Below are positions 9,882 to 64,000 of a stretch of 64,000 bases of DNA, piece after piece. A program made the position numbers and the translations under genes. The notes below the pieces were generated by a model that worked only from the letters and a program-made list of their open reading frames with translations, searched no databases and was not told where the DNA came from. Positions within the stretch are counted from its first letter, which is position 1; each line of letters starts with the position of its first letter. The stretch is from positions 186,001 through 250,000 of the forward strand of contig NZ_FNIE01000012.1 of the NCBI RefSeq assembly GCF_900103985.1, written 5' to 3'. Origin of the DNA: Actinacidiphila guanduensis. GTDB taxonomy: Bacteria; Actinomycetota; Actinomycetes; Streptomycetales; Streptomycetaceae.

Positions 9882-9918
9882 CCGGCGGGTGCGACAGGCG
9901 AGCTGCCGCACCCGCCGG
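9882..9918 (+). terminator. Rho-independent terminator after the dehydratase gene
   Basis: CCGGCGGGTGCG (9882-9893) pairs perfectly with CGCACCCGCCGG (9907-9918) across a 13-base loop and is followed by a T-rich tail. It begins 13 bases after the stop codon. Confidence 0.75.
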
Positions 9919-10042
9919 TTTCGTGTTTTCCCTGTGTCAGGCGAATTATCGTCCACCGTATTCCGCGGATGTCCCGGAAATGGCCTGACGTGAATGTTTC
10001 CGCAGGTCACAGTGGTCATGAAAGCAGGAATGGAAAGACCCG

Positions 10043-10071
10043 TTGACTTGATAACACACAGGGTTTTACAT
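10043..10071 (+). promoter_or_regulatory. Candidate promoter of the second GH38 gene
   Basis: TTGACT (10043-10048), a 17-base spacer and TTACAT (10066-10071) lie 33 bases before the start codon. The AGACCCGTTGAC sequence around the -35 box matches that of the dehydratase promoter, suggesting shared control. Confidence 0.5.
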
Positions 10072-10103
10072 GGCGGGAACCAGCTGGACAGGAAGGGCTG
10101 CCC

Positions 10104-15423: not shown

Positions 15424-15447
15424 CGCCGTTTCGCGGCCGCGTGGGGA

Positions 15448-15468
15448 TTTTGCCGTCATCCGGCAAAA
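15448..15468 (+). terminator. Hairpin after the ROK-fusion gene
   Basis: TTTTGCCG (15448-15455) and CGGCAAAA (15461-15468) form a perfect 8-bp stem with a 5-base loop, 25 bases after the stop codon. The A/T-rich ends resemble a bidirectional terminator, though no T-run follows. An operator for the GH3 gene is also possible; a TTGACG box lies at 15496-15501. Confidence 0.5.
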
Positions 15469-15645
15469 CCTGGGAAGCCGATCGCGTCCCGGCTCTTGAC
15501 GTTGAGTCAAAACTGACCACAAACTGCCGAACTGAAGAACCCGGGCCGCTTGGTTTCTTCGGACTTGCACCAAACTTCATGGCGCTACCTGCACCTCGCA
15601 GCACCTTGCAGCACCTCACGGCACTCCCCGGACGACGGAGGCAGC

Positions 15646-18600
15646 ATGGACAGCAGCATGGACAAGCGAAAGCGCAGGCGGGCAGGGCTCGCCGCGGCAT
15701 GCGCGCTGGTGTGCGCGGTGGGGCTGAGCGCCGCGTCGGGCGGCGCGGCCCTGGCCCAGGCGCCGCGCGCCACCGCGGCGACGCCGATCTACCTGGATAC
15801 CGATTACTCCTTCCAGGAGCGGGCCGCGGACCTCGTCTCCCGGATGACGCTCCAGGAGAAGGTGCAGCAGCTCAGCACCAACAGCGGACCGGCCATCCCC
15901 CGGCTCGGCGTGCAGCAGTACACGTACTGGAGCGAGGGCCAGCACGGCGTCAACAGCCTGGGCGCCGACCAAAACAACGGCGGCGTGCAGGGCGGGGTGC
16001 ACTCCACGAGCTTCCCCACCAACTTCGCCTCGTCCATGTCCTGGGACAAGGACCTGATGTACCAGGAGAGCACCGCGATCTCCGACGAGGCCCGCGGCTT
16101 CGTCGACAAGTCGCTCTTCGGCACCGGGCAGAACAACCTTGGCCCCTCCGCCGACGACTACGGCTCCCTCACCTACTGGGCGCCCACCGTCAACCTCGAC
16201 CGCGACCCGCGCTGGGGCCGCACCGACGAGGCGTTCGGCGAGGACCCGTACTTCGTGGGCCAGATGGCCGGCCAGTTCATCGACGGCTACGAGGGCAACA
16301 CCCAGGACGGCACCTCGCAGACCGGCTACCTGAAGGTCGCCGCGACCGCCAAGCACTACGCGCTCAACAACGTCGAGGACAACCGCACCGGCATCAGCTC
16401 CGACGTCAACGACACCGACCTGCGCGACTACTACACCGCGCAGTTCCGCGACCTGATCGAACAGGCCCACGTGGCGGGCCTGATGACGTCGTACAACGCG
16501 ATCAACGGCACGCCGTCCACCTCGGACACCTACACCACCAACGAACTCGCCCAGCGCACCTACGGGTTCGGCGGCTACATCACCTCCGACTGCGGTGCCG
16601 TCGGCACCAACTGGCGGCAGTTCCCCGGCGGCCACGACTGGGCGCCGCCCGGCTGGACCACCGACCACGACCCGGACAACCCGACCTGGACCGAGACCGC
16701 GACCGGCACCACCGTGCCCGGCCAGGCCGGCGCCGAGGCGTACTCGCTGCGGGCCGGCACCGACCTGAACTGCACCGGCGACGAGGCCACCACCGCCAAC
16801 ATCGAGGCCGCGATCAAGGCCGGCGTGCTCAGCGAGGGCGTGATCGACAACGCCCTGGTGAAGGTCTTCACCATCCGCATGGAGACCGGCGAGTTCGACC
16901 CGGCGGGCAAGGTCCCGTACACCAAGATCACCAAGGACCAGATCGAGAGCCCCGCCCACCAGGCGCTGGCCGCCAAGGTCGCCGACAACTCGCTCGTGCT
17001 GCTGAAGAACGACAAGCTGCCCTCCGGCGGCGGCCGGCTGCTGCCGGCGGACCCGGCGAAGGCGAAGAAGGTCGTCATCCTCGGCGACATGGCGAACACC
17101 ACCTCGCTGGGCCTGTACTCCGGCCAGCCGGACCACACCACGAGCCCGGTGCAGGGCATCGAGGACGAGGTGCACGCCGCCGACCCGACCGCCTCGGTGG
17201 TCTTCGACGCCGCCGGCACCTCCTCCACCGCCACCTCGCCCGCCGTGCTCAGCGACAAGACCAAGGCGGACATCGCCTCGGCCGACCTGGTCGTCCTGTT
17301 CGTCGGCACCAGCCAGGCCAACGCCGACGAGGGCAAGGACCGCACCAGCCTGGCGATGCCCGGCAACTACGACTCGCTGGTCGACCAGACCGCCGCCCTC
17401 GGCAACGACAAGCTCGCCCTGGTCATCCAGTCCGACGGCCCGGTCGATCTCGGCGACGTCCAGGCCAAGGTGCCCGCCATCGTCTTCAGCGGCTACAACG
17501 GCCAGGCCCAGGGCACCGCGCTGGCCGACGTGCTCTTCGGGAAGCAGAACCCCTCGGGGCACCTGAACTTCACCTGGTACAAGGACGACTCGCAGCTGCC
17601 CGACAAGCAGAACTACGGCCTGACCCCCGCCGAGACCGACGGGCTCGGCCGCACCTACCAGTACTTCACCGGCACGCCGACCTACCCCTTCGGCTACGGC
17701 CTGAGCTACAGCACCTTCTCCTTCACCGGCATCACGGCGAACAAGACCCAGATCACCGCGAACGGCCAGGTCAAGGTGCACGTCGACGTCACCAACACCG
17801 GGAAGACGGCCGGCGCCACCGTCGCCGAGCTGTACGCGGCCACCCCGTTCACCGTCCAGGGCGTGGAACTGCCCAAGGAGCGGCTGGCGGGCTTCGCGAA
17901 GACCAAGGTGCTGGGGCCGGGGCAGACGCAGCACCTCACCTTGACGGTGAAGGCCGCCGACCTGTCCTTCTGGGACGCCGGCTCCTCCCGGCAGGTGGTC
18001 TACGACGGCCGCTACCGCTTCCAGGTCGGCCCGGACTCCGCCCACCCGGCCGGCCACGCCGACGTGAGGATCACCGGCAGCCTGAAGCCGAAGGTCCAGT
18101 ACGTCACCGTGCAGCCGGAGAACGTCGTGTACAACGCCGGCGACACCTTCAGCCTCACCGCGAAGAACAAGTGGATCAAGGACGACACCGACCACGCCAA
18201 GGAACAGCGCGACACCTCGCTGACCGCGGACGGCGTGGTGGAGGCGGTGAACAACGACCAGTCCTTCGTGGACCTGAAGACCACCAAGGCCACCTACAGG
18301 AGCAGCAACCCGGCCGTGGCCACCGTGGACCGCAACGGCACCGTGCACGCCGTCGCCGACGGCGTTGCCACCATCTCGGCCACCGTCGGCGGGGTCACCG
18401 GCTCCGCGCCCGTCGTCGTCCGCAACACCGCGGGCCTGGACGCGCCGCCCATCGCCGACGCCGGCACCACCCTGACCGCCACCACCAGCTACACCAACGG
18501 CAGCGCCCAGGCGGCGACCGGCGTCACGGCCGACCTCAAGGCGCCCGACGGCTGGACCGTGACGGCCACCACCCCGGCCTCCTTCGACCAGGTCGGCCCC

Positions 18601-49710: not shown

Positions 49711-49781
49711 CCTGAGGGTTTGTCGATGCGCATTACCAGGGCGCGGTTGAGGGTCTTCTCGGTGGGGGTGAGCCGGCCGAT

Positions 49782-50036
49782 CACCAAGCTGGAGCTTCGT
49801 CACCGGCTCCGGGCCCGGGCCGAGGACCGCATCCGGGCCGCCCGGGCCACCGGACTGCGCAACCTGCCCCTGCGCCACACCGCACAGAACAAGGTGTGGC
49901 TGGAGATTGTCCAGATCGCGCTCGACCTGCTGGCCTGGATGCCCATGCTCGCCCTGACCGGCCTGGCCAGGCTCTGGGAGCCCCGCCGGCTGCGGTTCCG
50001 CTGTTCTCCGCAGCCGCCCAGCTCGTCACGTCCGCG
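49782..50036 (+). pseudogene. IS1380-family transposase C-terminal fragment
   Basis: The frame encodes AEDRIRAARATGLRNLPLRH, then NKVWLEIVQIALDLLAWMPM and ARLWEPRRLRFR, a good match in pattern to the C-terminal half of IS1380-type transposases. No N-terminal or catalytic part is present. A frameshift near 50005 moves the continuing homology (LFSAAAQLVTSAAR) to another frame. It has no start codon of its own and is a remnant of an insertion sequence. Confidence 0.7.
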
Positions 50037-50274
50037 GCGCGATCGGCTTCTCCCCCTTCGGTGTGCTGGCCTACTACGCCATCACCAACGCCTCCGCCTG
50101 GATCCTGACCCCCGCCGAAGGGCGGCCCCCCAGGTTCGTGCCGGTCCTCGGCGCCGCAGGATGCCTCGTCCTGGCCTTCGCCCTGCCACTGACCTCGGTG
50201 GTGTGGGGGGCCGGGCGGTGATCGCGCTGGGCGCCGCGGCCTACGGCCTGCGCAAGGCACTGACCCGCACGTGA
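50036..50274 (+). pseudogene. C-terminal remnant of an APC amino-acid permease
   Basis: The sequence reads IGFSPFGVLAYYAITNASAW and then LTPAEGRPPRFVPVLG in one frame. After a frameshift near 50215 it continues as VIALGAAAYGLRKALTRT and ends at 50274. This resembles the last two helices of an APC amino-acid permease. The remainder of the gene is missing, and the fragment abuts the IS1380 remnant, so a deletion or recombination joined them. Confidence 0.65.
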
Positions 50275-51809: not shown

Positions 51810-54806
51810 TCAGCCGGGTTGGGCGATCAGCTCGGTCGCGTAGTCGCACAGGGCCGACCGGTGCGGCTGGCCGGTCTTGGCGAGCAGCTTGGCCACGTGC
51901 TTCTCGACCGTCCGCGGGGAGATGTACAGCCGCTCGGCGATCTCCTGGTTTCCCAGGCGCGGCGCGAGCAGCAAGAACACCTCGTACTCACGTGCGGTCA
52001 GGCCCTGTAGACGCAGCCGGGCCGGAACGCCCGGAGTCCCGTGGCGCCGCTGCCGGACGGTCGCGCCCGCCCGGCGCAGCAGGTCGCGGCAGCTGTTGGC
52101 CACGACCGGCACGCCCGCCCCGTGGAAGTACTCCTCGGCGTCGCGCAGCCATTCCACCGGATCACCCCAGCCGTCGGCCAGGGCCACCGGCGCCACCAGC
52201 CGCTGGCCGAGCCGGCGGGCCATCAGGAACGGTTCGCCTGCCTCTTGTGCCTGCGCCACCGCGGCCTCGGCCTGCGCTCTGCGTCCGGCCCTGCCCTCGT
52301 GCACCGCGAACGCGAGTCGTTCGAACTGCCGGTTCCACGGCAGCGCCGCGGAGGGGTCGGCGACGGTCGCCGCGTGCTCCTCGGGGTCCGCTTGCCCGGT
52401 CAGCGCCCGCAGCAGCGGACGCAGCCCGTAGCGGCCGTTGAGGAAATGGACGGAAGGGTTCCCCTGCTCCCAGGCGAAAGCCTCGTCCAGCTCGCGCAGC
52501 GCCTGCTCACAGTCCTCCTCCAGCAGCGCGCAGATGGCGCGGCTGCCGAAAGCCTGCGGGGACTGCAGCGACCGCTCGCCTCCCCAGCGGCGGAACTCGG
52601 CCAGCTCCCTTTCCATCTGCCGGCGCTGCCCCTGGTGCGCGGCCAGCGCCACGCGGATGAGCAGGACGAACTGGTGGTTGTCGGCGTCCCTGAGCCGCGC
52701 GGTGCCCTCGGCACAACGATCGGCCAGCTCCCGGGCCGCGGCGTAGTCGCCGCGCAGCACCTGTTGCATGGCCATGGTGGCCTCGGCCCGGTACATCAGC
52801 GCCAGGGCGCCGTGGCCCAGGGCCGCTCGGTGGGCCCGTTCCAGCCGGGTGGAGCTGCCGGTGCACATGAAGTCGTTGACGCCCAGCCACATGAGGGTGT
52901 CGAGCTGCCACGTGGTGAGCCGGTGCTCGTTGGCGAGCACGAGGCACTTCTCCAGGTACGAGTCGGCCTGCTCGAAGCCGTGCCGCCGGGCCAGCACGGC
53001 GAGCAACTGCCATGCCTGGCAAGCGATCTCGGGGAGTCCGGCGCGCTCCGCGCCGTCCGCGGCCTGGCGGGCCAGCCGCTCCGCCTCGTCGGTCCGGTCG
53101 CCGTCGCTGTCCTGCACCCCGGCGAGGATCAGATGGGCCTCGACCATCTGCACCGCCGGTCCGAGCGCCGCCACGGCGGACGGCCGCGCGCCGTCGGGCA
53201 CGAGCCGCAGCAGTTGGCGGACCTGGCGCACCCGCCCCGCGGCGTCCTCGAACCGCGCGGCCGTCACGGCGGCCCAAGCAATACGGGCCTGCAAGGTGGC
53301 TGCCCGGACCGCGTCCAGTGCGCCGGGACCGGCTTCGGGCAACTCGTCGGCAAGCGCGCACGCCCGGTCGAGCTGGCCGTTCTCGGTCAGGGTGTACACC
53401 AACTGCTCCACCAGCGGCGCCCGTTCGGCGGCCTGGTCCGCACCCGGCAGCAGGTCGAGGGCCCGTTCGAGCAGTGACACGGCGGAGTTGACGGCGCCGC
53501 CGGCCAGCGCGGACCGGCCGGCCTGCGCGAAGCGCAGTGCTGCGGCGCTCGGGTCGCCGGCCGTCTGCCGCAGGGCGGCGACGAGCACACACCACTCGCC
53601 GGGCAGCCCGGGGTGCGCGCGTTCGATCGCGTCGGCACCCCTGGCGGCGATGGCGGCGCGTTCCGCGGGCAGGATCGCGGCGACCAGGGCCTCCGCGGTC
53701 AGCGCGTGCCGGAACTCGTACCAGTCACCCACCGGACGGCTGGGCGAGATGAGGTGGGCGTCCATGCCGGCCCGCAGGTGCACCAGCAGGTCGCGGTCCG
53801 GCAGCCCGCTGACCGCCTGCAAGACGGCCAGCGAGAAGCGCCGGCCGAGAACGGCGGCGCTGGTGAGCAGCGCCCGTCCGTCCGGGCTGAGCCGGGCGGC
53901 GCGCTGGGTGACGCTGTGCACCACCGTGCGCGGGACATCGATGTCCAGGTCGCCGGTGACGTGCCAGGCGCCGTCGGGCCCGCGGCGCAGTACATCGGCG
54001 GCGATCATGCCGCTGAGCAGTTCCTCGACGACGAACGGATTGCCGTCGGCGTCCCTGGCCAGCCGGTCGGTCACCTCCTGGGGCAGCAGGACGGCTGTGC
54101 CGTGGGGCGGCGGTCCGGCGGCCGCCAGCGCCGCTTCGGCCATCATCCGGACCTCCTCGCCGGTCAGCGGGCGCGGTTCGCTGAGGACCGCGGACCGGCG
54201 CTGGGCGAGCTGCCGGGCCAATTGCTCGGCCGGCCCGTGCTCCGGGCGGAGGGTGGCCAGCAGGACGATCGGCTGGCCCCGGATGTTGTCGCACAGGTAC
54301 TCGATGGCGGCGAGCGTCTCGGTGTCGGTGTCGTGCAGGTCCTCAAGAAGCAGCAGACAGCCGGGGTGCCGGTGCTGTGTCAGGTCGCGGCCGATGGTGG
54401 CCAGCAGCCGCAGCGTCGCCTCGGCCGTCTCCACGGGCGAGGCCGGCGCGCCCGTGTACCCGGCGGTGCGCCACTCGGGCAGCAGGCCGCCCAGCGCCGA
54501 GCGGTACGGGGCGAGTCCGGGGTCCTCGGGGAGACCTCCGAGCCGGACGAACGACAGCAGTGCCTCCGCGATCGGGCGGAACGGCGCTGCGCCGCCGCCG
54601 GTGGCGCCCGGCCTGCCGCGCAGCACCGCCAGGCCGCTGGTGAACGCGCGGAACGCGCACTCCGCGGCCAGCCGCGACTTGCCGATCCCCGCCTCGCCGA
54701 GCAGGAACACCGCCCGGCCGTCCCCTTCACGAACACCGGCGAGACTCGCGTCGAGCACGGCGAGTTCGGCGCCGCGCCCGATCACCGTTGGTGATGTTAT
54801 GAGCAC
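51810..54806 (-). CDS. LuxR-family ATPase regulator (LAL type)
   Basis: This protein of about 998 residues has an N-terminal AAA-type ATPase domain with Walker A GEAGIGKSR and Walker B LLLLEDLHD, a long tetratricopeptide-like middle, and a C-terminal LuxR helix-turn-helix (LTAREYEVFLLLAPRLGNQE, YISPRTVEKHVAKLLAKTGQ). LAL proteins commonly activate antibiotic clusters. It lies 52 bases downstream of the cysteine-free precursor gene in the same direction as lanM and is the likely pathway regulator. The start is uncertain: GTG 54806 is chosen, with GTG 54785 possible; neither has a ribosome binding site. Confidence 0.88.
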   Translation of the reverse strand: MLITSPTVIGRGAELAVLDASLAGVREGDGRAVFLLGEAGIGKSRLAAECAFRAFTSGLAVLRGRPGATGGGAAPFRPIAEALLSFVRLGGLPEDPGLAPYRSALGGLLPEWRTAGYTGAPASPVETAEATLRLLATIGRDLTQHRHPGCLLLLEDLHDTDTETLAAIEYLCDNIRGQPIVLLATLRPEHGPAEQLARQLAQRRSAVLSEPRPLTGEEVRMMAEAALAAAGPPPHGTAVLLPQEVTDRLARDADGNPFVVEELLSGMIAADVLRRGPDGAWHVTGDLDIDVPRTVVHSVTQRAARLSPDGRALLTSAAVLGRRFSLAVLQAVSGLPDRDLLVHLRAGMDAHLISPSRPVGDWYEFRHALTAEALVAAILPAERAAIAARGADAIERAHPGLPGEWCVLVAALRQTAGDPSAAALRFAQAGRSALAGGAVNSAVSLLERALDLLPGADQAAERAPLVEQLVYTLTENGQLDRACALADELPEAGPGALDAVRAATLQARIAWAAVTAARFEDAAGRVRQVRQLLRLVPDGARPSAVAALGPAVQMVEAHLILAGVQDSDGDRTDEAERLARQAADGAERAGLPEIACQAWQLLAVLARRHGFEQADSYLEKCLVLANEHRLTTWQLDTLMWLGVNDFMCTGSSTRLERAHRAALGHGALALMYRAEATMAMQQVLRGDYAAARELADRCAEGTARLRDADNHQFVLLIRVALAAHQGQRRQMERELAEFRRWGGERSLQSPQAFGSRAICALLEEDCEQALRELDEAFAWEQGNPSVHFLNGRYGLRPLLRALTGQADPEEHAATVADPSAALPWNRQFERLAFAVHEGRAGRRAQAEAAVAQAQEAGEPFLMARRLGQRLVAPVALADGWGDPVEWLRDAEEYFHGAGVPVVANSCRDLLRRAGATVRQRRHGTPGVPARLRLQGLTAREYEVFLLLAPRLGNQEIAERLYISPRTVEKHVAKLLAKTGQPHRSALCDYATELIAQPG

Positions 54807-54858
54807 CAGCGGAGGATAGCTCCGGTTCTGACTATCTACCAGGGGTGAGGAGAGTTCG

Positions 54859-55077
54859 TCAGTATGCGCCCGCTTGGCCCCAGGAGGTGAATGTAAAGGA
54901 GTAAGTAGGGAATTGGTCGGGGTCCTCTCCCGTCGTGGCCAGGCCGGCCAGCAGCTGGGCACGACGGCCGACGACCGCACCGGTGCCCAGCCGGATGCTT
55001 CCGGCAGGGTGGTCAGAGGCGGCCCCGTCGCGGGCGGCCGGGTTCTTCCAGGCGTTGACGAGGGGGTTGTCGCTCAT
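54859..55077 (-). CDS. Lanthipeptide precursor with mersacidin/lichenicidin-type leader and cysteine-free core
   Basis: This 72-residue peptide begins MSDNPLVNAWKNPAARDG and contains DHPAGSI, the WKNP..HPAG pattern of the mersacidin/lichenicidin leader family. The C-terminal part (ATTGEDPDQF, then TYSFTFTSWGQAGAY) holds several Ser and Thr residues but no cysteine, so no lanthionine ring can form within it. No double-glycine site is obvious. An AAGGAGAA eight bases upstream of ATG 55077 is a strong ribosome binding site. The gene overlaps the lanM 3' end by 65 bases. It may be dehydrated only, or be a regulatory or decoy peptide. Confidence 0.75.
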   Translation of the reverse strand: MSDNPLVNAWKNPAARDGAASDHPAGSIRLGTGAVVGRRAQLLAGLATTGEDPDQFPTYSFTFTSWGQAGAY

Positions 55078-58000
55078 CGGACGTTCTCCTTCTCGGGGTC
55101 GGGGTGGGCGGATGCGGGGCCGGCGACTGCAACAGCAGTACCGAGGGGACACGGGGCCCGAAGCCGAGCCGCAGCAACTCGTGCCCGATGCCGGCCAGAC
55201 CGGTCAGCAGCCCCGGGCTGCTGACCGAGTCGGGCGTCCCGCAGCGCGGACCGAACCGGTCCAGTGCGGACAGTAGCGCGGCAGCGCGGGGCAGGGCCGC
55301 GCCGGGGCCCGCGCTGCCCGGGCCGGTCGCGGCGAGAAGCAGGTCGAGGGCGCCGGCCTCTCCGTGGCACAGGCTGTGGTCGCCCGCGGTCGGAGCGGCG
55401 GACCGCTCGACCACGTCATTCAGCAGCCCGGTCAACTCGGGGACGTCCGCCGCGGGCCCGCTGTCGGCGATCGCCAGCGCGGCGCCTGACGCTTCGTCGC
55501 ACCAGCCGGTCCCGACCGGGGCCGTCGCGCACCGGGCCGCCGCGGTGCGCAGCGTCGCCAGGCCGGCTGAAGCGTGCCCGGGGCCGCCGCCGGCCGCGGC
55601 GAACCGCAGCAGCGCCCACCCCACGCCGGCGGCCCCGGTGCTGAAGCCGCCGGCAGGCAGGCCCCCGGGTGCCTGGGCGGCGAGCCGGTCGGCGCAGGCC
55701 CGGGCGGTGCGGGCGGCCGTCGCCGACCCCGTGGCCTGCTGTACGGCGAGCATCGCCGCCAGGCAGCCGGCGTCGCCGTCGAGGACCCCGGGCTGCGCGT
55801 CGGCGCCGGCCGCGGCCGTGGCCGCGGCGGCCAGGTCCACGGCCGTGGCGGCCCAGCCGGCCACCTCCGTGTCGTCCAGCAGGCCGGCGAGCAGGGTGAG
55901 CGCGTAGGCGATGCCGCCCAGGCCCGCGAAGCCCGCGCCGACGGCGTGCAGGTCGGCCGGCCGGCCGGCCAGCGAGGCGAGCAGATCCGGCAGCGGGGCC
56001 AGCGCGCGTCGCGCGACCGAGGTGTACCGCTCGGTGCCGGTGAGGTCGGCGAGCTGCGCCAGGAAGAGCGCCGTGCCGCAGTAGCCGTGGGGCAGCCCCG
56101 CGCCCTGTGGCCGGACCGCCCAGATCCGGTCGTCCAGGGGCTCCAGGCACAGCCAGTTGACGCGTCGGCCGTCGTCCTGCGCGCGGGCCAGGATGCGGTC
56201 GGCGATGCCGCAGGCGGCGAAGAGCATCCGTTCGGCGTCGGGCACGGTGGCGGCAGGCTGGCCGGGCGGCGCGGCGGAGGTGCGCGGTCCGTTGCCGCGG
56301 CGGCGGGTCGCAAGTGTCGCGCGGATCACCCACTCCTGGTCGAAGCGATCCGTGTCGCCCATCATGGCGACGCGGTGCTCGGCACGGGCCAGGCCGCACT
56401 CGGCGACCAGGCCGTCGACCGTCAACGGGCCGATCGCCAGGTCCGTCGCCCCGGGGGAGCAGACGGCCACGGGTACGTCACCCGCCCACAGTTCGGCCAG
56501 TTCGGCGCCCGACAGGGTGCGCAGCCCCTGGCCGCCGGCCGAGTCGCGCCACAGCACGTCGAAGAGCCGCTCCCGGTCCAGGGCTTCGCGCAGTACGTCC
56601 GGATGGGTGGACTCGTCCAGCAGGTTCGCGTACCAGCGGGTGGGGCGTAGTACCGCCCGCGTCACGTCCCGCGTGAAGCGGGCGAGCAGGCCGCCGGGGC
56701 CGATCAGTTCCGTACGGTGTCCGGCGATCGCGTCGTAGCCCGCCCGGAAGCCGGCGACCAGCGGCTCCACGTGGAGCGAGGGATCGGCTTCCGCGTCGCG
56801 CAGCCGGGGCCGGTTCGCCGAGCCGCGGAACATCCCGACGGTCCTGACCAGGCGCATGGTGTCCGTTCCCGGTGCCGACCAGCCGGTCACCTCCTCAGGC
56901 AGCGGGGTGTCCCGGTCGCCGCCGAGGCCGGAGATGTCCAACGCGCCGTGTTCGCCGACCAGGAAGAGCGGCAGGAGCGCGGTCCGCGCGACCGACGCCG
57001 TCAGCGCCGCCTGCGCCGGGTCCGCGCAGGCGTGCCGGTGCAGTTCGGGATGGAAGAGCGTCTCCAGGTCCACCAGGACGGGCTGGTCCGCGCTGGCGAC
57101 CAGGTTCTCGAAGTGCATGTCGGTGGCGCCGAGCGCGTGGATCAGCGCCAGCAACGCGCCGAGCCGCCAGTAGAAGCGCTGCACGTCGGCCGGGCCCGCG
57201 CACGGTGCGGCTGGGGCGTACTCCACCCAGCCGTAGCCCGGTCGGCCGAGAACGGCCAGACGGCGCAGGTCCAGGCCGGCCAGGTGGGAGTTGAGCCAGC
57301 CGCAGGCGTCGTTGAAGTGCTCGTGCACGCTCAGCGGGCGGGGCTTGAACACGACTTTGGCGCCGTGCTCGAAGGACAGTACGGCGACCGCCCGGCCGCC
57401 TTGGTGCCGGTCGCCGGCGCTTGTGTCCACCTGGACCAGCCGGCCGGGGTCGACGCCGGCGAGGAGCTTTTCGACCACGTCGGCCCGGTCGTCGGCGAAA
57501 CGCCCGAGCAACTCGTTCCACGCGTTCACGGCCTGGTCGCAGCACTGCGCCAGCAGCCTGGCCAGGACCGGGTACTCGGTGACCAGGGCGCGCAGCGCGG
57601 ACCGCGCGGAAGCCTGTCGGACGAAGTCGCAGAACCGCAGTTCCGCAGTGTCGCCGCGCAACTGCCCGCGTTCCCGGAGGACGTTGAGTTCCAGCACCAG
57701 GGTCCGGCGGGCGAGCTGCACCAGCGCCCTGCCCAACCGGTCGGTGAAACAGTCCCTGACCGCCGCCAGGTCGGCCGGCCCGTCGGTACCGCGCCGGCCG
57801 ATGGTCATCAGCAGCCGCTCGGCCGCCGCCTCGGTGAACGGCGCGAGCACCGCGGCGAAGCCCGCCGACCAGGAGCCGACGGCAGGCAACGGCGGGTCGA
57901 GCGGAGCCCGCGCCAGCGCGTCCTCGACCGTGGCGACCCACGCGGGCCTGCCGATCCTGCCGGCCAGGGCCGCGGGCTCCTCGGCGAGCAGGGCGCTCAG

Positions 58001-58171
58001 CCCCTCCTCGTCCAGCCCGGTGTCCGCCAGCCGGGTCCGCAGCAGCGCGGGCGAGGAGTACGCGGACTGCCACGTCCGGGCCGGGTCGGCGGTGCCGGCG
58101 GGCGTCGGAGGTGGCGGCAGACGCTCGGCGAGAGCCACGCCGCCGACCCACCAGGTCTGCGGATCCATCAT
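55013..58171 (-). CDS. lanM: Class II lanthipeptide synthetase LanM
   Basis: This 1052-residue bifunctional enzyme dehydrates Ser/Thr in a precursor and then adds cysteine thiols to form (methyl)lanthionines. The DUF4135 dehydratase domain is marked by FEHGAKVVFKPRPLSV, GATDMHFENLV and VLVDLETLFHPE. The C-terminal LanC domain has the zinc ligands C891 (GWCDEASG), C935 and H936 (LCHGEAG), so cyclisation should be competent. The last 30 residues are a Pro/Arg-rich extension that reads over the start of the next gene. It diverges from the two Cys-rich precursor genes across a palindromic region. ATG 58171 is chosen; ATG 58168 is equivalent. Confidence 0.93.
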   Translation of the reverse strand: MMDPQTWWVGGVALAERLPPPPTPAGTADPARTWQSAYSSPALLRTRLADTGLDEEGLSALLAEEPAALAGRIGRPAWVATVEDALARAPLDPPLPAVGSWSAGFAAVLAPFTEAAAERLLMTIGRRGTDGPADLAAVRDCFTDRLGRALVQLARRTLVLELNVLRERGQLRGDTAELRFCDFVRQASARSALRALVTEYPVLARLLAQCCDQAVNAWNELLGRFADDRADVVEKLLAGVDPGRLVQVDTSAGDRHQGGRAVAVLSFEHGAKVVFKPRPLSVHEHFNDACGWLNSHLAGLDLRRLAVLGRPGYGWVEYAPAAPCAGPADVQRFYWRLGALLALIHALGATDMHFENLVASADQPVLVDLETLFHPELHRHACADPAQAALTASVARTALLPLFLVGEHGALDISGLGGDRDTPLPEEVTGWSAPGTDTMRLVRTVGMFRGSANRPRLRDAEADPSLHVEPLVAGFRAGYDAIAGHRTELIGPGGLLARFTRDVTRAVLRPTRWYANLLDESTHPDVLREALDRERLFDVLWRDSAGGQGLRTLSGAELAELWAGDVPVAVCSPGATDLAIGPLTVDGLVAECGLARAEHRVAMMGDTDRFDQEWVIRATLATRRRGNGPRTSAAPPGQPAATVPDAERMLFAACGIADRILARAQDDGRRVNWLCLEPLDDRIWAVRPQGAGLPHGYCGTALFLAQLADLTGTERYTSVARRALAPLPDLLASLAGRPADLHAVGAGFAGLGGIAYALTLLAGLLDDTEVAGWAATAVDLAAAATAAAGADAQPGVLDGDAGCLAAMLAVQQATGSATAARTARACADRLAAQAPGGLPAGGFSTGAAGVGWALLRFAAAGGGPGHASAGLATLRTAAARCATAPVGTGWCDEASGAALAIADSGPAADVPELTGLLNDVVERSAAPTAGDHSLCHGEAGALDLLLAATGPGSAGPGAALPRAAALLSALDRFGPRCGTPDSVSSPGLLTGLAGIGHELLRLGFGPRVPSVLLLQSPAPHPPTPTPRRRTSDERQPPRQRLEEPGRPRRGRL

Positions 58172-58198
58172 GCCCGCGATCGTGCCACTGGCGGCCCG

Positions 58199-58293
58199 CG
58201 CTTCCTATGGGGGCCGGCCCCCATATTCCGGCGGGAGCGGGGCCCGCGGCCGGCCGGCGCGGCGGAATACGGGGGCCGGTCCCCATAGGAAGC
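58199..58293. promoter_or_regulatory. Nested inverted-repeat array in the lanM/precursor divergent region
   Basis: TATGGGGGCCGGCCCCCATA (58206-58225) is a perfect 20-bp palindrome. A near-copy, TACGGGGGCCGGTCCCCATA (58268-58287), lies 62 bases away. Around both, GCTTCCTATGGGG (58199-58211) and its exact complement (58281-58293) form an outer 13-bp inverted repeat, and inner arms pair 15 of 16. It lies between two divergent transcription units and is the best candidate site for LAL or other regulator binding. Confidence 0.6.
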
Positions 58294-58452
58294 CGGTGCG
58301 CGGCGGCCGATGCTCGGAGCACCCCGACGACGGTCTCGGTGCGGCCGAGCACGGAGGCGGTCGGCCGGAGCCCGGCGCCGCCCCGGAACGCCCTGCCGAG
58401 GACGGCGCGGGCACGCCCCGGGGGATGGGCGCGCGGGAGACCGTTTTCCCCG

Positions 58453-58472
58453 CTCGGACCATGCGGTCCGGG
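58453..58472 (+). promoter_or_regulatory. Conserved stem-loop before the first Cys-rich precursor
   Basis: CTCGGACC-ATGC-GGTCCGGG forms an 8-bp stem (one G-U pair) with a 4-base loop, about 27 bases before ATG 58500. The equivalent position before the second precursor carries a matching stem, so it may be an mRNA leader element. Confidence 0.5.
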
Positions 58473-58499
58473 CTCCTCTTGTCACAGATGGGATGTGCG

Positions 58500-58802
58500 A
58501 TGAGCGAGGTTCAACTGAGTTCGGAGGAACGGCGCCGGTTCGGTGCCCTGGTGGCGCAGGTGTGGAGCGACAGCGACCTCGCGGCGCGCTACGCCTCCGA
58601 GCCGCTGGTCGTCCTGGCCGAGCACGGCATCGTGTCGGCGGAGCCGCTGGAGGTGCCGGCTGCGCCGGTGGAGGAGATCGACGACGAGGCGCTGGGCCTG
58701 CTCAGCGCGGTCGGCGGTCTCGCGCCCGCCTGCTGCGGGTCGGCGAGCTCCGTCTCGTGCCCCGGCTGCACGGCGAGCACTTTCGGCTGCGGCAACTGCT
58801 GA
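58500..58802 (+). CDS. Lanthipeptide precursor 1 (NHLP-like leader, 27-residue core with six Cys)
   Basis: This 100-residue peptide has a 73-residue leader resembling nitrile-hydratase-type leader peptides (FGALVAQVW, DLAARYASEPLVVLAEHGI). The leader ends at a double glycine (SAVGG), suited to C39-peptidase cleavage. The 27-residue core contains vicinal C78-C79, then C87, C90, C97 and C100, with seven Ser/Thr after C79, enough for several (methyl)lanthionine rings. It is divergent from lanM and lies in an operon-like series with the exporter genes. ATG 58500 is chosen; ATG 58488 in frame is conserved in position in both copies and cannot be excluded. Confidence 0.88.
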   Translation: MSEVQLSSEERRRFGALVAQVWSDSDLAARYASEPLVVLAEHGIVSAEPLEVPAAPVEEIDDEALGLLSAVGGLAPACCGSASSVSCPGCTASTFGCGNC

Positions 58803-58816
58803 GTCACATCGCTGCG

Positions 58817-58862
58817 CCGGGGGTCGGACGGGGAGCCCCTGTGCTCCCCGTCCGACCCCCGG
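58817..58862 (+). terminator. 20-bp perfect-stem terminator between the two precursor genes
   Basis: The sequence 58817-58836 pairs perfectly with 58843-58862 around a 6-base loop, giving a 20-bp G/C-rich stem that starts 15 bases after the precursor-1 stop. No T-run follows, as is common in Streptomyces. It would stop or attenuate transcription, or stabilise the precursor-1 mRNA. Confidence 0.75.
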
Positions 58863-58944
58863 GCCCCGGAACCCCGACGCCCAGGGCGGCACGGGTTCGT
58901 AGGACACGGATCACCGCTCGCTGTGTGTGCCGGTCCTCCCCCTG

Positions 58945-58966
58945 CCCGGACCGAGCGCGGTCCGGG
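58945..58966 (+). promoter_or_regulatory. Conserved stem-loop before the second precursor
   Basis: CCCGGACC-GAGCGC-GGTCCGGG is a perfect 8-bp stem with a 6-base loop, 27 bases before ATG 58993. It corresponds to the stem at 58453-58472 and is followed by the same ACAGATGGGATG-type leader sequence in both copies. Confidence 0.5.
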
Positions 58967-58992
58967 CGTCCCCGCCACAGATGGGATGCGCG

Positions 58993-59280
58993 ATGAGCGA
59001 AGTCCGACTCACTTCCGAGGAACGGCGCCGGTTCGGCGCACTGGTGGCCGATGTGTGGAACGACGGCGACCTCGCGGCGCGCTACGCGGCCGAGCCGCTG
59101 GCGGTGCTCGCTGAGCGCGGCATCGTGTCGGCGGAGCCGCTGGAGGTGCCGGCTGCTCCGGTGGAGGAGATCGACGACGAGGCGCTGGGCCTGCTCAGCG
59201 CGGTCGGCGGTCTCGCGCCCGCCTGCTGCAGCTCGGCGACGACCATCGCCTGCATCGGCTGTGTCATGACGGCCTGCTGA
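58993..59280 (+). CDS. Lanthipeptide precursor 2 (NHLP-like leader, 22-residue core with five Cys)
   Basis: This 95-residue peptide shares 65 of the 73 leader residues with precursor 1, including RRRFGALVA, VLAE and SAVGG. The 22-residue core begins LAPACC like precursor 1, then diverges: C78, C79, C87, C90 and C95, with five Ser/Thr after C79. Cys positions 78, 79, 87 and 90 are identical in both peptides, so the first rings may be conserved. The two genes arose by tandem duplication with a repeat distance of 493 bases between start codons. ATG 58981, four codons upstream, is an alternative start. Confidence 0.88.
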   Translation: MSEVRLTSEERRRFGALVADVWNDGDLAARYAAEPLAVLAERGIVSAEPLEVPAAPVEEIDDEALGLLSAVGGLAPACCSSATTIACIGCVMTAC

Positions 59281-59295
59281 CCGGCGGCACATCAC

Positions 59296-59325
59296 GGTCG
59301 GACGTGGGCCGCCCCGCGTCCGACC
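59296..59325 (+). terminator. Stem-loop after precursor 2
   Basis: GGTCGGACG (59296-59304) pairs with CGTCCGACC (59317-59325) across a 12-base loop, 15 bases after the stop. The arm sequence recurs in the longer stem after precursor 1, consistent with duplication of gene plus terminator. Read-through to the P450 gene, 27 bases on, is possible. Confidence 0.5.
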
Positions 59326-59351
59326 ACCTCACGCGCAGTTAGGAGTGATCG

Positions 59352-60827
59352 ATGGCGGGCACGGCGAACACCGAAGGCAGCCGGGCGAGTTCGAGGGACG
59401 GGGCGGGTACGGACGGTGGTGCGGGTGCGGCTGTCGGCCCTGCCGCCGCGGCCAACACGGTCGTTCCGGGTGACGACGCCGAACGGCGGCACGCGGTCGG
59501 CGAGATCATGGCACGGTTGCGGGGAGACCGCGCCCCGGTGGGCGGGACCTTCCACCGCACGCCCGCCGAACTGGCCCGCATCGCACCGGTGGTGGCCGTC
59601 GCGCCCGGTCTGACCGTGGTCACCGCAGCGCGCGAGGCGCGGGCGCTGCTCGCGGACCCGCGGCTGCTCGTCGGCTCCGACGAACCCGCCGTGCCCGCCG
59701 TACGGGTCAGCCCCGTCGGCGAGATCGACGCGCTCTACCACGCCATGTTCAGCCTTCAGGACGGCGCGTCGCACGCGCGGCTGCGCCAGGTGGTCGCGCC
59801 GTACTTCTCACTTGGAGCGGCGCAGGCGACGGAACCCGCGATCACCGCGCTTGTCGAGCGGACCTGGGACGAGGCCGTGTCGGCGGGCTCCGGCTCCGTT
59901 TCCGCGGCGGGCGCGACCGAATCCGGATCCGAAGGCGCGTCCGGCCCTGTGGCCGCCGAACACGAGCCGGCACCGGCCGGGTTCGACCTCGTCGCGGCCT
60001 TCGCGGACCCGCTGCCGATCCGGCTGGCCCGCACGACGATGGGGCTGCCCGTCGAGGACGAGCCGCAACTCATGTCGTGGGCGCGGCTGTTGCGCGACCA
60101 GCTCAGCCCACAGCAGACCGGCGGCGTGGCACCCGACGTCGAGCGGGCCGCCGTGGCCGGGACGGCCCGACTGCGCGGGTACGCCGAGCGCGCTATCGCC
60201 GAGGCGGCCGACGGCCCGCTCCATGCGATCGCGGCGGCCTCGCGCGCGGGAAACATCCGACCGCACGAAGCCGTGGGGCTGTTCGTGCTGCTCCTCGTCA
60301 ATGGTCTGGAGACGCTGAGCCAGGCCCTGGTGCAGGCCGTACGTGTGGTCGCCGCGGACCCGGCGTGGCTCGCGGCCGTGCGCGCGCGACCGGCCACCGC
60401 CCTCGACGCGTTCCGCGCCGCCCTGCGCACAGAACCGCCGCTGCGCATGCTGGCCCGGCGGGCCGGCTGCCCCGTCACCATCGGCGGCAGCCGACTGGCC
60501 CTCGGCGGGACCGCCGTCGTCCTGCTGGCCGCCGCGGTCGCCGAGGACGCCGAGCGCGCCCCGGGCCCGCCCGGAGCACCGGGCCCCCGGGCCCGGCAGG
60601 ACGGCGCGCTGGCCTACGGGCACGGCAAGCACGTCTGCCTCGGCCGCCATCACGCAGATCTCGTCGGGGCGGCTGTGTTGCGCCATCTTGCCGCCCGCTG
60701 CGCCCGGGTGGACCTGCTCCCTGGAGCGAGGCCGCACCGGCACGTCCCTGTGAACGGCTACGCGTACCTCCCCGTACGCCCGGTCCCGCACGCCGCTGAC
60801 CCCTTTACCCGCGAACGGAGTGCCTGA
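59352..60827 (+). CDS. Cytochrome P450, atypical
   Basis: This 491-residue protein has the heme-ligand loop YGHGKHVCLGRHHA (C429) and an I-helix-like LLLVNGLETLS, so it is a P450, probably a tailoring oxygenase for the lanthipeptide. It is unusual: the ExxR position reads AALR (A356 to R359) instead of ExxR, and the segment between it and the heme loop is shortened. It also has a 40-residue Ser/Gly/Ala-rich insertion (about residues 178-212) and a Gly/Ala-rich N-terminus. AGGAG lies six bases before ATG 59352. It is the third gene of the precursor operon. Confidence 0.85.
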   Translation: MAGTANTEGSRASSRDGAGTDGGAGAAVGPAAAANTVVPGDDAERRHAVGEIMARLRGDRAPVGGTFHRTPAELARIAPVVAVAPGLTVVTAAREARALLADPRLLVGSDEPAVPAVRVSPVGEIDALYHAMFSLQDGASHARLRQVVAPYFSLGAAQATEPAITALVERTWDEAVSAGSGSVSAAGATESGSEGASGPVAAEHEPAPAGFDLVAAFADPLPIRLARTTMGLPVEDEPQLMSWARLLRDQLSPQQTGGVAPDVERAAVAGTARLRGYAERAIAEAADGPLHAIAAASRAGNIRPHEAVGLFVLLLVNGLETLSQALVQAVRVVAADPAWLAAVRARPATALDAFRAALRTEPPLRMLARRAGCPVTIGGSRLALGGTAVVLLAAAVAEDAERAPGPPGAPGPRARQDGALAYGHGKHVCLGRHHADLVGAAVLRHLAARCARVDLLPGARPHRHVPVNGYAYLPVRPVPHAADPFTRERSA

Positions 60828-60828
60828 T

Positions 60829-61884
60829 ATGGCCGATACGGCCGATACGGCCGAGAAGGGGCTGCCCGTCCTCCCACCCGCGCCGGACGATGCCCGGTCC
60901 GGGCGGGTCCTGGCGCCCGGACGACCGGCAGGACGGGCGGAGCCGCCGCCCCGCCGCTCCGACGCGACCGACGGTGCCGAGCGCCCCGTAACCGCCGCGG
61001 ACGGGGTCGACGGCGCCCTCCGTTCCGAACCGGACCCGCACACAGGCCAGGACCTCGCCGGCGACCCGGACGAAGACCTGGACGACGACACCGACGCCGC
61101 GGCGGACAGACGCCTCGCCCTCGCCGCCCGCACCGCCGGGGAACGGATCCGGCTGGTGCCGAGCGGCTACGCCCTGGCCCTGAGCATGATCCTGGTCGCG
61201 CTGTTCGGCCTGGTGAGCTGGTCGGTGTTCGGAACCGTGCCCAGCTCCGTGCACCTCACCGGCGTCCTCGTGCACGGCGACGGCCCGAGCCCGGTGCCCG
61301 CGCCCGCCGCCGGAACCGTTGTCAGTGTCGCGGTGCGGCCCGGACAGGCGGTGCGGCGCGGCGAGAAGGTCGCCGTCGTGCAGACCGCGTCCGGGCGCCG
61401 CAGCCCCGTCACGGCGACCGCCGAGGGCACAGTGCTCGGCGTGGTGTCCGCGCCCGGCACGGCGGTGGCGCCGGGGACGCCGGTCGTGTCGGTCGACCTC
61501 AGCGACGGCGGCCTCACCGGCTGGCTCTTCGTCAGGGCCGACCGGGGCTACCCGGCTGCCGCCGGTTCCTCCGTGACCGCGCGGCTGTCCTCGGGCGACT
61601 CCGTGGTCACCGTGGACGGCACGGTCCGCGGCATCGGGAGCTATCCGATGACCGGGAGCGAGATCAGCCGCATGCTCGGCGGCCTGCCCGCTCGGCTCGC
61701 CGTGTCCGGTGACGGACCGTACCGGCTGGTCACCGTGTCGATGCGGGCCCTCGGCGTGACCGGCTCCGCGCACCTGGCGCTGAGCGGTCAGGAGTCCTCC
61801 GAGGTCCCCGCGCTCATCCCGCTGGTCGCCGACGTGCGCACCGGGTCCGTACGGCCGATCGACGCGCTGGTGGGGGGCCACTGA
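60829..61884 (+). CDS. HlyD-like membrane-fusion protein of peptide export system
   Basis: This 351-residue protein has a 110-residue disordered, acidic N-terminus and one membrane helix (ALALSMILVALFGLVSW). An extracytoplasmic part follows with a lipoyl/biotinyl-like hairpin (VPAPAAGTVVSVAVRPGQAV). That layout fits HlyD/NHLP-type secretion accessory proteins that partner C39-peptidase ABC exporters. It starts at ATG 60829, one base after the P450 stop, with GGAG eight bases upstream, and its stop overlaps the next start by one base (TGATG). It probably assists export of the two Cys-rich peptides. Confidence 0.85.
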   Translation: MADTADTAEKGLPVLPPAPDDARSGRVLAPGRPAGRAEPPPRRSDATDGAERPVTAADGVDGALRSEPDPHTGQDLAGDPDEDLDDDTDAAADRRLALAARTAGERIRLVPSGYALALSMILVALFGLVSWSVFGTVPSSVHLTGVLVHGDGPSPVPAPAAGTVVSVAVRPGQAVRRGEKVAVVQTASGRRSPVTATAEGTVLGVVSAPGTAVAPGTPVVSVDLSDGGLTGWLFVRADRGYPAAAGSSVTARLSSGDSVVTVDGTVRGIGSYPMTGSEISRMLGGLPARLAVSGDGPYRLVTVSMRALGVTGSAHLALSGQESSEVPALIPLVADVRTGSVRPIDALVGGH

Positions 61885-64000
61885 TGCGCTCTGCGCCCCT
61901 CGCGCTCGGCCGCCGCGTCCGCCGTGTGCCGTACGTGCCGCAGACCGAGGAGACGGACTGCGCTCCCGCGTGCCTGGCGTCCGTGCTCGCCTGCCACGGC
62001 CGCCGGGTCCCGCTGCGTGAACTGCGGGAGGCGACCGGCGCGTCACGGGACGGCGTGGACGCGCTCACGCTGGTGCGCGCCGCGCGCGGATACGGTCTCG
62101 CCGCACGGGCCGTGCGGGTGACCACCACGTGGCGCGACGGCCGTGCGGAGGTCACCGGCCTTGCCGACCTCCCGCTGCCGGTCATCGTTCACCTGAGGGA
62201 CCGTCATTTCATGGTGCTGGAGCGCGTGTCCGGCGGCACGGCGACCCTGGTCGACCCCGCGCTCGGCCGGCACCGCCGACCGGTCGCCGACCTCGCCCCC
62301 GACCTGAGCGGCATCGTGCTGGTCGCCGAACCGGGCCCGCACTTCCGGCCCGGCGGCGCGCGGGCCGGCACACTGCGCCGGATCGCCGGGCTGCTCGCCG
62401 GGCAGTGGACCGGGGTGCTCGTCGCGGTCCTGCTCAGCCTGGTGGCGTGCGCGGCCGGACTGGCGCTCGCGATGGTGCTGAAGCTGCTGGCCGGCGCGCT
62501 GCTGGCCGGCGGCTCGGCCGGACAACTGCAATTCGGCGCGGCGCTGTTGGCGACGGGCGTGCTGGCCGGGGGAGTGGCCGCCGCGCTCAACCAGATACTC
62601 GGCAGGTTCCAGATCCGGCAGTCGCTGACGCTGTCGGTCGACTTGGTGTGGCGGCTGCTGCACATCGAGGGTGCCGCGCTGCTGCGCCGCGAGCCGGGGG
62701 CGATGGCCAGTCGTGTGCAGTCCGCGGACGCCTTCGCGCAGGGCCTGATCTACCAGGTCGTGCCGGGACTCGCCGCCGTGGTCAACGCGGCCCTGATCGG
62801 CGTGGTGATGGTGCACGAGGACCGGGTGGTCGGTCTGACCGCGGTCGGCCTGGGCCTGCTCGCCGTCGCGATCCCGGTGTTCAGCTGGCACCGGCAGGCG
62901 GCCGCAGCCGTGATCGAACAGCGGCTCACCATGCGCCGCGACGCCGTCGGCTTCGCCGTGATGCGGTCGATCGACGCGGTCAAGGGAAGTGGCGGGGAGG
63001 CCGAGGTGGCCGGCTACTGGACCTCGCGGCACGCCGTCGCGGTCCGCGCGAGCGCGCTGCACACCCGGCAGCAGCAGGGCATCAACAGCGCCGCCGCGGT
63101 CCTCGCGGTCGGTGCAGCGGGCGCGGTGGCCCTCGTCTCCGCGCCCCGGATCCTGGCGACGCACATGACCTTCGGCTCCCTCTTCGCCATCCAGAGCCTG
63201 ACCGGGTCCTTCGTCGCCGCGGCGTCCGCGGTCGTGCTCGGACTGCTCCAGATCCCGGGGCTACGTACCCAACTCGATGTCCTGGATGACCTGTTGGGTG
63301 AACGGAGCGACGTGGGCGCGGTCCGTGAGGTGGGTGAGGACACCGGGGAACGGCTCGCTGGACACCTGCGGCTGGAGGGTGTGACGGCCGGGTACACCCC
63401 CGCCCGGCCCGCCCTGCGCGACGTGGACCTGACCGTCCGCGCGGGGGAGTGGCTGGCCGTGACCGGCCCGACCGGCGCGGGCAAGACGAGTCTGGCCCGG
63501 CTGCTGGCGGGCGTGCTCCAACCCCAGGACGGACAGGTGCTGTTGGACGGCCGGCCGGCGCGCAGCTGGCCGCGCGGCGTGCTCGTGCGCAGCGTCGCCT
63601 GGGTCGACCAGAACATCGAGCTGTTCGCGGGCACCGTCGCCGACAACCTCACGCTGTGGGACGACGACACCGCCCCCGGGGCCCTCGACCGCGCGCTGCA
63701 CGACGCCTGCCTCGACGAGGTGATCGCCCGCCGTGGCGGTCCGCACGCCGCCGTCGTGACCGAGGGCGGGGACAACTTCAGCGGCGGTGAGCGGCAGCGG
63801 CTGGAGGTCGCCCGCGCCCTCCTCACCGACCCTTCGATCTTGATCCTCGACGAGGCCACCGGCGCTCTCGACCGCGCGGTGGAGCGGGAGTTGTTCGCCC
63901 GGCTGCGCCGCCGCGGGGTGACGGTGATCATGCTCGCGCACCGCCGCTCGGCGGTGGACGTCTGCGACAGGGAGGTGGTCGTGCGCGGTGGCACGCTGAG
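61884..64000 (+). CDS. lanT: C39-peptidase ABC exporter (LanT/NHLP-type), partial at window edge
   Basis: At least 705 codons are present, running off the right edge without a stop. An N-terminal C39 peptidase domain has catalytic C26 (ETDCAPACLAS), H108 (RDRHFMVLE) and D124 (LVDPALG), so it can cleave after a double glycine as in the two precursors. A membrane domain with about six helices follows. The ATPase has Walker A GPTGAGKTS, signature FSGGERQRL, Walker B ILILDEATGALD and an AHRRS switch. It therefore probably removes leaders and exports the mature peptides. ATG 61884 overlaps the preceding stop. Confidence 0.9.
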   Translation, partial: MRSAPLALGRRVRRVPYVPQTEETDCAPACLASVLACHGRRVPLRELREATGASRDGVDALTLVRAARGYGLAARAVRVTTTWRDGRAEVTGLADLPLPVIVHLRDRHFMVLERVSGGTATLVDPALGRHRRPVADLAPDLSGIVLVAEPGPHFRPGGARAGTLRRIAGLLAGQWTGVLVAVLLSLVACAAGLALAMVLKLLAGALLAGGSAGQLQFGAALLATGVLAGGVAAALNQILGRFQIRQSLTLSVDLVWRLLHIEGAALLRREPGAMASRVQSADAFAQGLIYQVVPGLAAVVNAALIGVVMVHEDRVVGLTAVGLGLLAVAIPVFSWHRQAAAAVIEQRLTMRRDAVGFAVMRSIDAVKGSGGEAEVAGYWTSRHAVAVRASALHTRQQQGINSAAAVLAVGAAGAVALVSAPRILATHMTFGSLFAIQSLTGSFVAAASAVVLGLLQIPGLRTQLDVLDDLLGERSDVGAVREVGEDTGERLAGHLRLEGVTAGYTPARPALRDVDLTVRAGEWLAVTGPTGAGKTSLARLLAGVLQPQDGQVLLDGRPARSWPRGVLVRSVAWVDQNIELFAGTVADNLTLWDDDTAPGALDRALHDACLDEVIARRGGPHAAVVTEGGDNFSGGERQRLEVARALLTDPSILILDEATGALDRAVERELFARLRRRGVTVIMLAHRRSAVDVCDREVVVRGGTL

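Follow-up and report, generated by a model that had tools for sequence, protein, structure and literature searches.

Gene content of the island

The DNA analysed here, called the window throughout, is a stretch of 64,000 nucleotides from the soil actinomycete Actinacidiphila guanduensis (positions 186,001-250,000 of contig NZ_FNIE01000012.1, in a genome of 8.22 Mb designated G000; G and L handles denote genomes and loci). Its right end enters a 21.9-kb island in which two modules for ribosomally synthesised and post-translationally modified peptides (RiPPs) diverge from one intergenic region. The island runs about 9.5 kb beyond the window end at 64000, and DNA past that point is numbered onwards from it. 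A sequence-only reading of the window had described a single class II lanthipeptide pathway with one LanM, three precursors and a set of genes completed by an exporter; the individual genes that it named stand, while the way in which it joined them does not.

The three genes of the leftward module lie on the minus strand. LanM1 (55013..58171, -) is a class II lanthipeptide-type synthetase (TIGR03897, 656 bits; DUF4135 and LANC_like domains) in which the WC/LCHG and DxHxEN motifs are intact, the former being presumably zinc ligands and the latter the kinase/lyase dehydratase motif, and it is thus of the zinc-type cyclase kind. PreC (54859..55077, -) is a 72-residue precursor with an HPAG-type leader. 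As to this third precursor, the small gene and its leader hold up, but the mersacidin/lichenicidin label given to it does not, with a TIGR03898 score of 18.7 bits that is below the cut-off of 23.5 and a G000 peptide without Cys at any position, so that the residue needed for a thioether ring is missing. The last gene of the triad encodes a LAL regulator (51810..54806, -) with an AAA_16 domain (2.2e-21) and a C-terminal LuxR helix-turn-helix (GerE, 2.5e-10) in Pfam; this assignment, like that of the LanM, was correct from the start.

The rightward module begins with two precursors whose leaders are of the nitrile-hydratase-like (NHLP) type and whose cores are rich in Cys, Ser and Thr, as already noted for Cys, although both score below the naming cut-off of TIGR04351 (65 bits). 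PreA (58500..58802, +; core LAPACCGSASSVSCPGCTASTFGCGNC) matches this model at E 1.3e-11 and 43.8 bits and PreB (58993..59280, +; core LAPACCSSATTIACIGCVMTAC) at E 3.3e-9 and 36.2 bits; if cleaved after GG their cores comprise 27 and 22 residues, with six and five Cys and calculated masses before modification of 2452.9 and 2088.9 Da, respectively. They are followed by a cytochrome P450 (59352..60827, +), an NHLP-system HlyD-type membrane-fusion protein (60820..61884, +; TIGR03794 E 6.4e-17, 61.6 bits, cut-off 156) and an NHLP exporter with a C39 peptidase (61884..64280, +, thus crossing the window end), all of which had been recognised. The exporter does not complete the set, however, for past the window come a second NHLP exporter (64277-66490), a second LanM-like protein, LanM2 (66487-69327; DUF4135, 254 bits), a YcaO cyclodehydratase with a thiazole/oxazole-modified microcin (TOMM) leader-binding domain (69324-71771; TIGR03604 263 bits, cut-off 219; TIGR03882 113 bits, cut-off 36.9) and a SagB-type oxidase (71881-73506; TIGR03605 135 bits, cut-off 78.4). 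The exporters score 509 bits with TIGR03796, the best model for the first, and 477 bits with TIGR03797, both under the cut-offs. As in NHLP-type export clusters, both exporters and the fusion protein match models of that system best (TIGR03794/03796/03797); unlike in such clusters, all three remain below the curated cut-offs.

An island shared with one relative

The block from 51645 to 73535 is 97% identical to a block of the relative G031 (in pieces 51645-64059 and 64241-73535; G031:C1 about 1723600-1745300), and in the DNA compared the similarity stops at both ends. The neighbouring chromosome, in contrast, is 84-90% identical to G031 and lies about 740 kb away there (window 44.3-49.7 kb matches G031:C1:2487269-2492302). 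A block of such identity at another chromosomal place supports the view, put forward in the sequence-only reading, that the island was acquired horizontally. At synonymous sites the two islands diverge by 0.05-0.12, both modules being alike in this respect, and dN/dS is 0.23-0.45 for the nine non-precursor proteins (with the G031 frame of exporter 1 truncated at a stop close to the 3' end); this conservation together with the family scores makes it unlikely that the protein genes are chance frames.

Transposase-like stretches flank the island, at window 49720-50040 on the left and at L009 7582-7831 on the right of the same contig, and resemble several places in the genomes of relatives. Both were read by eye as transposase and would appear to belong to two different insertion sequence families; the left one forms part of the gene debris noticed earlier on that side, its family again being our assumption. 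A repeat common to both sides of the island was considered and discarded, since only these two different stretches were present. No tRNA was found at the island ends in six loci scanned, and the right flank, when compared with the backbone of G031 and with that of G002, gave no continuous match from which to define an insertion site. Plasmid copies close to either LanM were not found, only distant ones below 60% identity.

The rightward module resembles dehydrazole clusters

Dehydrazoles were described by Pei, Zhu and Nair (2023, PMC10676384) for carnazolamide and its cca cluster, in which CcaM acts independently of the leader, dehydrates only those Ser residues that precede an azole, and yields a product without lanthionine rings; a cluster of Streptomyces sp. 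SN-593 that includes a P450-like gene is noted there as well. The island shares with these NHLP-type precursors, the pair of YcaO protein and azoline dehydrogenase (three TIGR models above cut-off), and a DUF4135 dehydratase without zinc ligands. It differs from what is described there in having NHLP exporters and a P450, in a LanM2 of 946 residues with a reduced C-terminal domain, and in that the proteins scanned included no recognisable epimerase or methyltransferase; moreover, it adds a LanM of the zinc type, a peptide free of Cys and a LAL, none of which is mentioned in the text on the SN-593 cluster.

The absence of zinc ligands is seen in the C-terminal part of LanM2 and in five aligned relatives, where no WC or CHG motif was found. 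LanM2, which is shorter than its relatives, gave no match to LANC_like in Pfam; at E up to 1 three of six aligned family members did, the best at 0.00046. A model of the relative in L043 has a LanC-type toroid at its C-terminus, at a mean pLDDT of only 62.8 and for a protein longer than LanM2, and Foldseek, which reveals only the folds that it picks up, aligned it with CuvL (Z 22.6, root-mean-square deviation 3.8, 322 residues) and LicM2 (Z 25.2, root-mean-square deviation 11.9, 668 residues). The P450 keeps its heme Cys (YGHGKHVCLG in this protein), a residue present in 15 of 15 aligned sequences, and has no match to the Pfam P450 model at E up to 1. Its ExxR Glu is replaced by Ala in G000 and G031 and by Ser in G002, while 12 of 12 others retain it, and this loss in the three closest clusters leaves the activity of the enzyme uncertain.

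A survey of other genomes suggests that NHLP precursors, P450, exporters, LanM2, YcaO and SagB form one dehydrazole-type module. By tblastn with the island proteins the order P450-HlyD-ABC1-ABC2-LanM2-YcaO-SagB recurs in G031, G002, G047, G016 and G025, and the order from P450 to SagB is kept in 12 of the 16 named YcaO-linked loci (L036-L051) among 20 matches listed, whose flanks were examined up to 10 kb; three of these loci are G047, G016 and G025 again, and L029, L030 and L035 come from the same genomes as L037, L040 and L043. No P450 match was found in Nonomuraea maritima (L046), the myxobacterial loci L047, L049 and L051 differ in arrangement, and among the matches listed relatives of the P450 are placed likewise in 14 other loci. 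Leaders of this family were recognised on precursors in G031, G002, Micromonospora gifhornensis (L036) and N. maritima, and more weakly in L047 and L051. A GSASSxS stretch, in most cases together with TAST, is common to the cores of PreA, G002, L036 and two precursors of L046; the PreB core is without it. Among 35 genomes of the genus, PreA-type genes at E <= 1e-8 are confined to G000, G031 and G002, and in the DNA examined of 11 Streptomycetaceae dehydrazole-type operons (L037-L045, L048, L050) no NHLP precursor was recognised, so the precursors of these operons may carry another leader.

The LanM1 relatives and their LAL partners

Close relatives of LanM1 (E <= 1e-50, with a 270-residue piece as query) were found in 25 of 119 genomes of the order. 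A LAL gene adjoins the LanM1-type gene in 27 of the 32 loci examined, on the same strand in 26 of these 27, the loci without it being L033, L108 (contig ends), L111, L126 and L127. Between LanM and LAL lies a small open reading frame in 26 of 27 triads, where one frame per locus was chosen as the best by start codon and ribosome-binding-like sequence and L123 gave none. Of these peptides, counted with those of G000 and G031, 16 of 28 are entirely free of Cys, and in 23 of 28 the last 25 residues contain no Cys, the exceptions being L031, L054, L055, L105 and G031; two tails recur, DLPWTT(M/F) and LTSGIVITL. Several loci are not independent, as L077 and L078 represent one plasmid lineage (98%) and L034/L112, L110/L120 and G000/G031 are more than 90% alike.

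The partnership of synthetase and regulator is also apparent in their divergence. LanM1 and LAL distances correlate with a Mantel r of 0.97 over 28 triads (reached in 0 of 2000 permutations) and of 0.90 for distant pairs, in a comparison that leaves out L054, masks LanM frames past a stop and includes L113 with a frame break and L055 as a partial sequence; part of this co-divergence follows species relatedness. In a tree from which badly cut rows were omitted, all 29 LAL-linked LanMs group together, to the exclusion of six LAL-less LanMs and 12 LanM2 relatives, with support of 1.0, as compared with 0.95 in a tree that retained some of those rows (L018 and L024, of doubtful frame). The LanM most closely related to LanM1 in the tree (support 0.998) belongs to a second triad of the same genome, L105 (G000:C19:362001-382000; LanM about 7977-12299, LAL 12733-16101), whose LanM has no zinc ligands and whose peptide has one Cys.

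With a LAL next to the LanM1-type gene in 27 of the 32 loci, we assign LanM1 to the small gene downstream of it and to the LAL, to which it probably belongs. The pairing of one LanM with three precursors is therefore mistaken: PreA and PreB go with LanM2, and LanM1 with PreC and the LAL, an error that arose because the window cuts the island. Nor does a single class II lanthipeptide pathway fit, since the Cys-rich NHLP precursors go with a zinc-less LanM2, YcaO and SagB in the arrangement described for dehydrazoles (PMC10676384), and LanM1 was found near none of the 16 named loci among the matches listed. The version closest to the earlier idea would be one hybrid pathway in which LanM1 also acts on PreA and PreB and closes lanthionine rings with leftover Cys, to give a lanthionine-containing dehydrazole. 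LanM1 does keep its zinc ligands, the cores have six and five Cys, and both modules are shared as one block; yet in the DNA examined around the precursor relatives of G002, L036 and L046 there is no LanM1, LanM1 has its own adjacent small gene across the triad family, and the NHLP leader is unlike the HPAG-type leader. We consider such a hybrid very unlikely.

The triads stand beside different clusters. Twelve share a downstream flank (group A and L031); of three flanks scanned, that of L114 encodes a BTAD regulator together with a RamC-type kinase, that of L031 a LanKC-like protein and that of L109 a BTAD regulator. Eight more share flanks or a plasmid lineage (group B), including two annotated plasmid loci beside non-ribosomal peptide synthetase (NRPS), P450 and MFS genes. 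Elsewhere, a TauD-type enzyme is encoded beside L055 and, together with an AMP-binding enzyme, beside L032, and an NRPS C-A protein beside L107; at L105 and L106, where two flanking proteins were scanned each, no biosynthetic cluster was recognised. Walker et al. (2020, PMC7268733, citing Zhang et al. 2015) state that LanM-associated precursors in clusters with both LanM and LanKC lack Cys. Similar to these actinobacterial clusters, the group A flank has, in the members scanned, RamC-type kinases or a BTAD regulator and its LanMs lie beside Cys-less peptides, and group A is probably the published LanM and LanKC set. What goes beyond that description, in the text available, is the constant LAL, the shared operator described below, and the attachment of triads to NRPS and dehydrazole genes.

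Zinc ligands are kept in 18 of 28 triad LanMs and lost in nine (the eight loci of the NRPS-linked group and L105), L113 being unreadable. Together with the greater divergence of PreC (dN/dS 0.58 over 72 codons, G000 versus G031, above that of the other genes), this loss might indicate a decaying triad in which PreC is no longer a substrate and LanM1 a mere passenger of the LAL. Against this, DxHxEN is kept in 28 of 28 triad LanMs, dN/dS of LanM1 is 0.40, and the small frame persists across the triads, and we give decay hardly any credence.

A candidate operator between the two modules

Two copies of the palindromic pattern ATGGGGG-N4-6-CCCCCAT lie in the divergent intergenic region of LanM1 and PreA. 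Copy 1, TATGGGGGCCGGCCCCCATA (58206..58225, no strand assigned), is the only exact site in the 8.2-Mb genome, and copy 2, TACGGGGGCCGGTCCCCATA (58268..58287, no strand assigned), has one mismatch; these are the only two matches in the 64-kb window, against 0.02 expected. With one mismatch allowed, 20 of 27 triads have the palindrome at no more than 700 nt upstream of LanM, compared with a mean of 0.36 and a maximum of 2 in 200 Markov sets (the count omits L117, whose contig ends at LanM, and G031, which repeats G000). As the pattern was derived from some of the loci later counted, genome-wide scans are the fairer test. Of 119 genomes from the order, drawn in the same way as those of the LanM1 search, 23 have the exact palindrome, 15 of the 25 that are LanM1-positive versus 8 of 94 that are negative (Fisher 1.8e-7), and a control pattern read backward occurs in 10 of 119. 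It lies less than 1 kb from the LanM match in 13 of the 25 LanM1-positive genomes, 40 kb from it in G187 and on another contig in G129. No palindrome was found upstream of LanM in the LAL-less loci L033, L126 and L127, nor upstream of PreA in G002, which has the rightward module and no adjacent triad. We infer from this distribution that the LuxR-type helix-turn-helix of the LAL would bind the palindrome.

Two further observations concern sites elsewhere. At L109 a second operator-like site (15814-15833) ends about 40 nt before an open reading frame for a BTAD-type regulator, which suggests a cascade from the LAL to a pathway regulator. In the eight LanM1-negative genomes with the palindrome no LAL or LanM1 was found within about 1.5 kb of it, and five genomes that have no LanM1 match (G130, G139, G145, G151, G155) share an identical 20-nt palindrome, ATGGGGGCCGCCACCCCCAT (on either strand), which likewise has neither a LAL nor a LanM closer than about 1.5 kb; it is perhaps the site of another regulator.

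It could be that the two pathways are merely adjacent and travel together, one making a dehydrazole and the other being a self-contained LanM-PreC-LAL system whose LAL controls its own operon only. Each module does occur elsewhere without the other, and in the triads the operator precedes LanM itself, being closer to LanM1 than to PreA also here. However, the block is common to G000 and G031 as a unit, the only exact operator of the genome sits in the shared promoter region, and the second site at L109 lies away from LanM and before a regulator gene. We regard independence of the two pathways as a fairly unlikely but serious alternative.

A proposed on-switch for the dehydrazole module

Taken together, gene content and order, family matches and motifs, the conserved triads, the palindrome with its placement and the block common to one relative lead us to favour, with a probability of roughly 0.66, a moved 21.9-kb island whose two RiPP modules share a divergent promoter, and whose LanM/LAL cassette controls, or at least travels with, the dehydrazole pathway. 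A rare palindrome at the shared start of both modules suggests that this cassette is the on-switch of the island. In the rightward module, PreA and PreB would be bound by the leader-binding domain of the YcaO protein, their Cys, Ser and Thr residues would be cyclised to azolines that SagB then oxidises, and the zinc-less LanM2 would dehydrate Ser next to azoles; the P450 may add an oxidative step, and the C39/NHLP exporters would cut after GG and export the dehydrazole-type product. In the leftward module, LanM1 is predicted to phosphorylate and dehydrate Ser and Thr of the Cys-free PreC, and the LAL, by binding the palindromes, would activate both its own operon and the dehydrazole operon that diverges from it, the likely signal being modified PreC. 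Enzyme steps, binding, control of the second operon and PreC as ligand are all deductions.

Several observations weigh against this reading. Among the genomes examined the modules stand side by side only in G000 and G031, probably through one event, and thus there is no independent second case of their functional coupling. The operator is missing from seven divergent triads, including those of the closest LanM1 relatives L105, L031, L032, L106 and L107, and a relaxed search in these seven gave none that was convincing; L105 is the second LanM-LAL pair of the own genome. Measured from the LanM1 start the two sites are 35-116 nt away, as compared with 213-294 nt from PreA, and inspection of 58100-58560 for a sigma-70-type promoter revealed none. 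On the enzymatic side, nine NHLP cores show no excess of Ser before Cys, Ser or Thr (21 observed versus 21.6 when shuffled), although CcaM-like substrates would be expected to have one, LanM2 falls short of its relatives in length, and its cyclase domain goes unrecognised by Pfam. Finally, the G031 PreC core ends in Cys, and a Cys-free product is thus not a fixed property.

More tentatively, and with some doubt on our part, LanM, PreC and LAL may constitute a portable signalling cassette, in which a lanthipeptide synthetase that formerly made ring-closed antibiotics now yields a dehydrated and mostly Cys-free peptide, the LAL senses this peptide and, through one dedicated palindrome, controls whichever cluster is adjacent, be it for a class III lanthipeptide, an NRPS product or a dehydrazole. 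The peptide might then be free of rings, or decorated with a small-molecule thiol through the LanC domain, and loss of zinc ligands in the NRPS-linked branch might be the end point of such a change of function. Human LanCL1 adds glutathione, so that LanC-type enzymes can join an external thiol to dehydroamino acids (PMC9934072), and zinc ligands kept beside a Cys-free peptide make a small-thiol adduct conceivable by analogy, though this is speculation.

Novelty and meaning

The claim that this combination had not been described holds in part: each half has precedent, but no description of the halves joined was found. PreC and LanM1 resemble mersacidin/lichenicidin-type class II lanthipeptides (TIGR03898) in the HPAG leader and LanM synthetase, and differ from them in a score below the cut-off, a core without Cys and no own exporter seen beside them. 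Our searches of open-access papers turned up no account of the joined modules, of LanM, peptide and LAL regarded as one triad, or of the operator that goes with them. What is new is the triad together with its single operator, and the fact that within a transferred island it is joined to a dehydrazole-type module; the parts themselves are of known kinds.

If the proposed control is real, palindrome, regulator and small peptide would together be a readable code for switching on silent actinomycete clusters, and the triads would offer a natural case of a lanthipeptide synthetase working on peptides without Cys. The authors who described the dehydrazoles report that cultures of the native strain gave no product and that carnazolamide was obtained by expression in E. 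coli (PMC10676384), and for this reason a native regulator would be useful. The island supplies a dehydrazole-type cluster with a P450 together with such a candidate on-switch.

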